Assembly (NCBI GenBank): GCA_009840215.1
Contig: VXOC01000340.1
Location: 1-34,739 of the forward strand
Source: Gemmatimonadota bacterium
Lineage (GTDB): Bacteria > Gemmatimonadota > Gemmatimonadetes > Longimicrobiales > Gaopeijiaceae
DNA length: 34,739 bases
Reading direction: 5' to 3'
Shown here: piece by piece, positions 13,558 to 14,911 of the stretch
Numbering within the stretch: the first letter of the stretch is position 1
Layout of the letters: each line of letters opens with the position of its first letter
The notes under the pieces: model-generated
What the model saw: the letters and a program-made list of their open reading frames with translations, nothing else
What the model was told of the DNA's origin: nothing
The model's database searches: none
Position numbers and translations under genes: made by a program

Positions 13558-13586
13558 TTGCGGCACGGTGGCGCGGCCCCTATCGT
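13558..13586 (+). promoter_or_regulatory. Possible promoter of the LexA-like gene
   Basis: TTGCGG (13558-13563), a 17-base spacer and TATCGT (13581-13586) would place the transcript start within about 5 bases of the ATG at 13598. The mRNA would then be nearly leaderless, which fits the absence of a ribosome-binding site. The match to consensus is moderate. Confidence 0.35.
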
Positions 13587-13597
13587 TCGCGCGCGTC

Positions 13598-14338
13598 ATG
13601 TCCGCCACAAGCCCTTCTCCCCACTACTTCAAGCGCATGCCCAGCGGCTCAAAACCCCTCATCGCAAGCCACGGCTCGCCCGCCCCCCGAACCGCACCGG
13701 CACTGACCGATCTCGAACAGCGGATCCTCGACTACATGGTGCTCTACCTGCGCACCCACACCTACCAGCCCTCGATAAGGGAGATCGGCCACCACTTCGG
13801 GATCAAGAGTACGAAGACGATGTCGGAACTCCTCCAGTCGCTGGCGGAAAAAGGCGTCGTCGAGCGCGACCCGTCGCGTTCCCGCGGCATTCGCATTCTG
13901 GGGCTGGACCTCAACGCACAGACGGTGTCGCTGCCCTGCTACCGCGACCTGGGGGAGGCGGTTGCGGGTCTCCGGAGCGGCCGCGCCCAACACCGCGTCT
14001 GCCTCGACCGGCAGTTGGCCAGGCGCAGCGGCGGTTTCCTGGTGTACGCGCCCGGTGACAGGATGACGGCGGCCGGCATCGACAACGGGGACCTCCTGCT
14101 GATCCAGCCGGTGCGGGCCGAAGAGCTGACGGGCGGAGAGATCGTCGTGGCCCGGGTCCGGGGAGTAACCGACTACTACCAGCTCGAGAAGCGCGGCACC
14201 CAGCTGACTCTGCGCGCGGCCGGGGGCGAGCGGAAGGCCGTCGGCGGAACTGCACAGCCGGTCATCCTCGGCAGGGTGGCGGGCCTCTACCGCCATGTGA
14301 CACCGCTTCCCTTCACGGGCCCCCTGACCGCGCACTAA
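13598..14338 (+). CDS. LexA-family repressor lacking the self-cleavage residues
   Basis: A 246-residue protein. Residues about 36-101 are a LexA winged helix (LTDLEQRILDYMVLYL ... PSIREIGHHFGIKSTKTMSELLQSLAEKGVV), and residues about 112-235 align with the LexA S24 domain without gaps through the active site. The catalytic Ser of GDSM is Arg155 (GDRM, codon AGG). The catalytic Lys of TVKRL aligns with Tyr194, and the Ala-Gly cleavage bond aligns with Glu120-Ala121. It should therefore bind DNA and dimerise but not cleave itself on RecA activation. ATG 13598 is chosen because the conserved part follows and a near-leaderless promoter fits; ATG 13637 is possible. It may be a second, non-SOS LexA paralogue. 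Divergent from the NCS2 permease. Confidence 0.82.
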   Translation: MSATSPSPHYFKRMPSGSKPLIASHGSPAPRTAPALTDLEQRILDYMVLYLRTHTYQPSIREIGHHFGIKSTKTMSELLQSLAEKGVVERDPSRSRGIRILGLDLNAQTVSLPCYRDLGEAVAGLRSGRAQHRVCLDRQLARRSGGFLVYAPGDRMTAAGIDNGDLLLIQPVRAEELTGGEIVVARVRGVTDYYQLEKRGTQLTLRAAGGERKAVGGTAQPVILGRVAGLYRHVTPLPFTGPLTAH

Positions 14339-14408
14339 CAGTCCGTGGACAGGATCCCCCCGGCATTCACCGCTCTCGGTGCTCGCGGGGCCTTGTCCAC
14401 GAGCTGCT
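14339..14408. repeat. Inverted-repeat hairpin element after the LexA-like gene
   Basis: Directly after the stop codon, CAGTCCGTGGACAGG at the left is matched by an inverted near-copy at the right, which reads CAGCTCGTGGACAAGG on the minus strand. The core arms CGTGGACA (14344-14351) and TGTCCACG (14394-14401) are perfectly complementary. Inner CCCC/GGGG and CACCG-CTCT-CGGTG pairing allows one long hairpin. It could be a terminator of the LexA-like gene, or a small palindromic extragenic element with terminal inverted repeats; solo copies of the end sequence lie at 8060 and 13538. Confidence 0.5.
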
Positions 14409-14425
14409 AGCCCACCCCCGGCCTC

Positions 14426-14911
14426 GTGCCCGCCACAACCCCCGGCGACCCCGCCTTCGTCTGGATGGCGCGTGCCCTGGAACTGGCCCGGGCGGGGGCA
14501 CTGCGTGGCGAGGTCCCCGTAGGCGCCGTAGTCGTGCTGGACGGGGTGTTGCTCGCCGAGTCCCATAACCGCACGGTGGAGCGGTGCGACCCCACGGCCC
14601 ACGCCGAACTCCTCGCCATTCGCGCGGCCGCGCGCCAGCTGGGCGACTGGAGACTCACCAGGTGCACCCTGTACGTCACGCTGGAACCCTGTGCCCAGTG
14701 TGCGGGGGCGATCGTGCTGGCGCGTATCGCGCGCCTGGTCTTCGGTGCCGACGACCCGAAGGCGGGCATGGCCGGAAGCCTCGGAAACCTCGTACAGGAC
14801 CCGCGTCTGAACCACCGCGTGGAACTGCTCGGCGGAGTACTCGCCGATGAATCCTCGCGATTGTTGCGCAACTTCTTCCGGGCGCGCCGGAGGCAGGGCG
14901 GCCAACCCTGA
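14426..14911 (+). CDS. tadA: tRNA-specific adenosine deaminase (or close nucleoside deaminase)
   Basis: A 161-residue zinc deaminase. EVPVGAVVV near residue 30 is followed by the zinc site THAELLAI (His ligand and catalytic Glu) and LEPCAQCAGAI with the two Cys ligands, then the TadA-typical RLVFGADDPKAG and a C-terminal helix ending FFRARR. TadA converts A34 to inosine in tRNA-Arg(ACG). Length and motifs fit. GTG 14426 keeps the conserved FVWMARALELAR lead-in; ATG 14465 is a shorter option. No clear ribosome site is seen. The gene converges on nhaC with only 7 bases between the stop codons. Confidence 0.9.
   Translation: MPATTPGDPAFVWMARALELARAGALRGEVPVGAVVVLDGVLLAESHNRTVERCDPTAHAELLAIRAAARQLGDWRLTRCTLYVTLEPCAQCAGAIVLARIARLVFGADDPKAGMAGSLGNLVQDPRLNHRVELLGGVLADESSRLLRNFFRARRRQGGQP

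Follow-up and report, generated by a model that had tools for sequence, protein, structure and literature searches.

The LexA protein of Synechocystis sp. PCC 6803 is without the Ala-Gly site and the Ser of self-cleavage, and it regulates outside the SOS response (PMC3091678, PMC7567884); it is the one example met in our literature search of non-cleavable LexA proteins, which have rarely been documented. In Leptospira interrogans, a second, divergent LexA (LexA2) binds the promoter of its own gene but none of the others that were tested, keeps Ser and Lys, has a Cys-Gly bond, is presumed to be cleaved after UV and is encoded in a prophage-like region (PMC3789691). Coliphage 186 encodes the repressor CI, which the antirepressor Tum inactivates; Tum itself is expressed from a promoter under LexA control (PMC7708051).

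Here we consider a LexA-like gene, hereafter lexA2, from the Gemmatimonadota contig VXOC01000340.1. The window, that is, the whole stretch of DNA that was analysed (34,739 nt), contains an open reading frame at 13598-14338 on the + strand, which the original prediction, made from the sequence, took to encode a LexA-family repressor that cannot cleave itself. The features that concern the gene and its product are as follows.

13558-13563, + strand: putative -35 box TTGCGG of lexA2 (genus upstream alignment, by eye)
13581-13586, + strand: putative -10 box TATCGT of lexA2, after a spacer of 17 bases (genus upstream alignment, by eye)
13637-14338, + strand: lexA2 coding sequence, 233 aa (genus-conserved ATG in aligned orthologues; Pfam domains LexA_DNA_bind and Peptidase_S24)
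13700-13888, + strand: LexA-type DNA-binding domain (Pfam), with recognition helix IKSTKTMSELLQSLAEKG, near-invariant across the phylum
13955-13960, + strand: Glu-Ala replacing the Ala84-Gly85 scissile bond (alignment; placed less surely than the Ser and Lys sites)
13997-14218, + strand: S24 (C-terminal) domain without catalytic residues (Pfam; fold match to LexA)
14060-14062, + strand: Arg codon AGG replacing the catalytic Ser119 (alignment)
14177-14179, + strand: Tyr codon TAC replacing the catalytic Lys156 (alignment)
14327-14335, + strand: C-terminal Thr-Ala-His, whose terminal His is kept in 77 of 80 family sequences

Identity and start of the gene

The window protein carries a LexA-type DNA-binding domain followed by an S24 domain, as in the LexA SOS repressor, and Pfam recognizes both (LexA_DNA_bind, 5.2e-16; Peptidase_S24, 8.1e-07). 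With the NCBIfam lexA equivalog (TIGR00498) the protein scores 100 bits, under the cut-off of 110.95. Its best PDB sequence match is LexA, and its AlphaFold2 model (mean pLDDT 82.6) has LexA structures as best fold matches; the same fold comparison also matched coliphage 186 CI (2fjr, 2fkd). The start had been placed at 13598, but the true start is probably ATG 13637 (M-P-S-G...), which is kept across the genus in the aligned orthologues, whereas ATG 13598 follows the -10-like box at 13581-13586 by only ~12 nt and would therefore be too near to it for a ribosome-binding site. From 13637 to 13699 the window encodes an N-terminal extension of ~20 residues before the DNA-binding domain, which is present in the window's genus and absent from the orthologues of families f2, f3 and f5.

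Loss of the self-cleavage residues

The original prediction had reported changes at three positions of Escherichia coli LexA, and the window residues at Ser119, Lys156 and Ala84-Gly85 are indeed R155, Y194 and E120-A121. The E. coli LexA query used in this alignment matches the PDB chain over the stretch displayed in the PDB match. The alignment is not gap-free, as had been claimed: from the Ser to the Lys position the window protein is longer by two residues, an insertion that also occurs in cleavable LexA2 orthologues. The codon at 14060-14062 reads AGG (Arg), and close homologues are likewise without intact Ser, Lys and Ala-Gly. Because the changes are common to the 21 orthologues from other genomes of the genus and to essentially all 80 family sequences, the loss of these residues is not a matter of chance or sequencing error. 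In the window's family, the Lys and the Ala-Gly pair are absent from all 80 LexA2 proteins and the Ser from 79, the sole Ser being retained by a protein (L123) that lacks the Lys. With the site dead throughout the family clade, it is close to certain, as far as sequence can tell, that LexA2 is unable to cleave itself.

The residues found instead are not random: Tyr, His or Phe stands at the Lys156 position in 70 of the 80 family proteins, and Asp, Glu or Arg at the Ser119 position in 66. This would suit a wider regulator tuned by ligand or modification, a mode of control that has been proposed for the LexA of Synechocystis, and its former active-site pocket may bind a signal. In support of this idea, the LexA of Synechocystis acts outside the SOS response and its phosphorylation changes with salt (PMC7567884). 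However, the best operator candidate (see below) is almost unique in the genome, and no ligand-linked gene, the neighbouring permease included, is conserved beside lexA2; we therefore consider a wider regulator of this kind rather unlikely.

The C-terminus is conserved as well, ending mostly in T-A/Q/T/P-H among the family proteins. It would be tempting to see in this -TxH tail a handle for regulated degradation, which would replace self-cleavage as the means of relieving repression. Nevertheless, -GAH is the C-terminus of two f3 orthologues that are cleavable, so the tail is older than the loss of cleavage, and it is poorly ordered in the AlphaFold2 model. We know of no degron of the -TxH type. 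Degradation through the tail, which would be compatible with autorepression, is thus improbable.

Distribution and evolution of LexA2

Both a normal LexA and LexA2 are present in 20 of the 22 other genomes of the genus, one further genome having the normal LexA only and one LexA2 only; the normal LexA proteins of the genus score ~190-200 bits. Of 200 genomes surveyed in the phylum, almost all have normal LexA. Most members of the window's family have LexA2, which also occurs in families f2, f3, f5 and f9; clear LexA2 was not seen in families f4, f7, f8 and f10 in this survey, and several genomes carry normal LexA alone. The named relatives are MAGs of Gemmatimonadota, Longimicrobiales and Gemmatimonadales, together with two records labelled Gammaproteobacteria.

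The second, cleavable LexA for which the original prediction recommended a search exists in nearly all relatives, but normal lexA was not found in the window's own genome assembly. In one relative (L075, 1150-5500), the genes around normal lexA look by eye like trp (tryptophan biosynthesis) genes, and its flank matches a contig of the window's genome (C341) that ends soon after. Since trpC is also missing from the assembly and the contig end is nearby, the gap is likely an assembly gap, and a true loss was set aside. RecA is present in the genome.

Cleavage was lost within LexA2, because distant orthologues, namely L069-L071 and L155 of f3 and several from f5, retain Ala-Gly, Ser and Lys. In a tree from which the catalytic columns were left out, obtained by a quick search without bootstraps, the dead clade has an SH-aLRT value of 99. 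The Ser state changes six times over the whole LexA2 tree, which implies more losses in f2, f5 and f9. The cleavage residues were lost independently in L204, L205 and L206 (f5) and in L198-L200 (f9), so loss is recurrent in this paralogue.

Between the window and L080, the overall dN/dS is 0.093/0.578 (~0.16); the DNA-binding domain has a ratio of 0.020/0.355 (~0.06), and the S24 region one of 0.133/0.528. Judged by these ratios, the dead LexA2 is under purifying selection. The repeated loss of catalytic residues in the LexA2 tree is what might be expected of a decaying gene, a sequencing error or another artefact; however, a frame open in 80 orthologues, the low overall dN/dS, a near-invariant DNA-binding domain and a conserved tail make such an origin extremely improbable. 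Selection for a stable repressor, which had been suggested, agrees with the retention of the non-cleavable form in all close relatives, nearly all of which also have normal LexA.

Gene neighbourhood

Two features follow lexA2 in the window.

14339-14412, + strand: hairpin inserted after lexA2 and before tadA (shortened version of a dispersed repeat)
14426-14911, + strand: tadA-like (tRNA adenosine deaminase) gene (deaminase domains, synteny, short gaps)

In our comparison, tadA is the conserved partner of lexA2: it lies downstream and in the same orientation in 79 of 80 loci, and the gap between the two genes is usually short. It is not adjacent to lexA2 in f5. Upstream of lexA2, in many members and in f5, is a gene that was recognized by eye as gltX. 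A conserved place beside housekeeping genes can reflect descent alone. On the other side, a permease is divergent from lexA2, as described earlier, but it is not the unusual gene it was said to be: it is an ordinary PF00860 member (xanthine/uracil permease family), divergent from lexA2 in close relatives only. With synteny so restricted, a role of the permease is not supported.

The hairpin at 14339-14412 has an MFE of -39.5 kcal/mol (z -2.7), and the nearest relative has 6 nt only at its place. The dispersed repeat to which it belongs has 64 matches in the window's genome (copies L260-L268); full copies are ~240 bp long, with inverted-repeat ends, and are MITE-like. Rfam yielded nothing beside lexA2.

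Promoters and candidate operators

Upstream of normal lexA, the direct repeat TTCGG-N6-TTCGG was found in 37 of 37 loci, often twice (e.g. L011, L018, L075), and it is a candidate SOS box of Gemmatimonadota. The narrower pattern GTTC-N7-GTTC was rejected as the normal LexA box, as it fits only 10 of these 37 loci. None of 109 lexA2 upstream regions contains TTCGG-N6-TTCGG, and the window has no copy of it. This absence, together with the coexistence of a normal, cleavable LexA in nearly all close relatives, upholds the earlier proposal that lexA2 is under control unlike that of the SOS response. It also bears on the idea that LexA2 modulates normal LexA, by forming mixed dimers or competing for SOS operators. 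The two proteins share a fold and coexist in the same cell, but their recognition helices differ, the S24 domain of LexA2 is very divergent, the normal box is confined to the normal promoters in the comparison above, and the genomes with normal LexA alone also speak against such modulation, which we hold to be very improbable.

Many lexA2 promoters outside the genus contain CTTTCTTGACAC ... CATTAGGATAG. In one subclade, the palindrome AAGAAA-N4-TTTCTT overlaps the lexA2 -35 box; its left half matches 3.56 of 6 positions, versus 1.87 +/- 0.17 in shuffles, at spacers of 3-4 only. Nine of eleven genomes have the exact core, AGAAA-N4-TTTCT, at their lexA2 promoter, and in seven of them there is no further copy, while G219 has four other copies, three of which are inside long open frames. 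Since the aligned palindromes are related by descent, and the choice of genomes depended in part on the presence of the site at their lexA2 promoter, only the absence of the palindrome elsewhere is informative; this near-uniqueness suggests that LexA2 regulates its own gene and has a very small regulon. With two mismatches allowed, the operator pattern is barely above its control, which leaves room for a wider, degenerate regulon. Two further candidates were rejected: CACCC-N5-GGGTG, from exact dyad counts, sits in the upstream gltX coding sequence, and ggTgTCatGAcAcc, from the palindromic motif search, is explained by a half-site at the -35 box.

Discussion

Our results indicate that LexA2 is a real, conserved, non-cleavable LexA paralogue, and the original prediction as a whole is partly supported; a non-cleavable LexA in itself is already known from Synechocystis. 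Its role is probably that of a permanently active repressor in a process other than DNA repair. Our preferred reading, held with a confidence that falls just short of even, is that LexA2 stands outside the SOS regulon and, being non-cleavable, acts as an autorepressor of lexA2-tadA. The S24 domain, no longer able to cleave itself, would now serve as a dimerization scaffold and perhaps as a sensor too; the stable dimer would bind an operator at its own promoter through a recognition helix that differs from that of normal LexA. As an autorepressor with a homeostatic role, it would thereby hold down transcription of the lexA2-tadA unit. Relief of repression, if there is any, might come from dilution, a ligand, modification or a protease, and not from RecA. 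We favor this autorepressor because of the dead clade, the purifying selection, the coexisting normal LexA, the linkage to tadA, the lack of a normal box and the palindrome of one subclade. Against it stand the palindrome searches, which found neither a palindrome nor an operator at the lexA2 promoters of the window's own genus, as well as the separation of tadA from lexA2 in f5 and the hairpin inserted between the two genes in the window. A bolder version, in which the protease-dead LexA2 is a dedicated TadA regulator across much of the phylum, with the altered active site or the -TxH tail as a replacement off switch, seems to us quite unlikely. If the tadA linkage is functional, a repressor of the LexA fold would be connected with the wobble editing of tRNA, a connection for which the literature that we searched, with incomplete coverage, offers no precedent: no paper dealt with such a Gemmatimonadota LexA, and none tied lexA to tadA. 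Moreover, because cleavage was lost on one branch, with cleavable orthologues in sister families and normal LexA alongside, what role a LexA takes up once freed from SOS control can be asked directly.

Compared with the LexA SOS repressor (TIGR00498; PF01726 + PF00717), LexA2 has the same domain order, DNA-binding domain and S24 fold, but it is without Ser, Lys and Ala-Gly, falls below the NCBIfam cut-off, and is a paralogue with another recognition helix and no normal LexA box. Coliphage 186 CI shares the LexA-like C-terminal domain, whereas it is a phage repressor with another DNA-binding domain, and its antirepressor, Tum, has no known counterpart for LexA2. The LexA2 of Leptospira interrogans resembles that of the window in being a second, divergent LexA, and differs from it by keeping Ser and Lys. 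The Synechocystis LexA is similar in that Ser and Ala-Gly are missing while the DNA-binding domain is kept. However, only these two features are reported as lost there, and the source mentions no second LexA, whereas the LexA2 of the window's family is without the Lys too, coexists with a normal LexA in relatives of the window's genome, and forms a whole clade linked to tadA.
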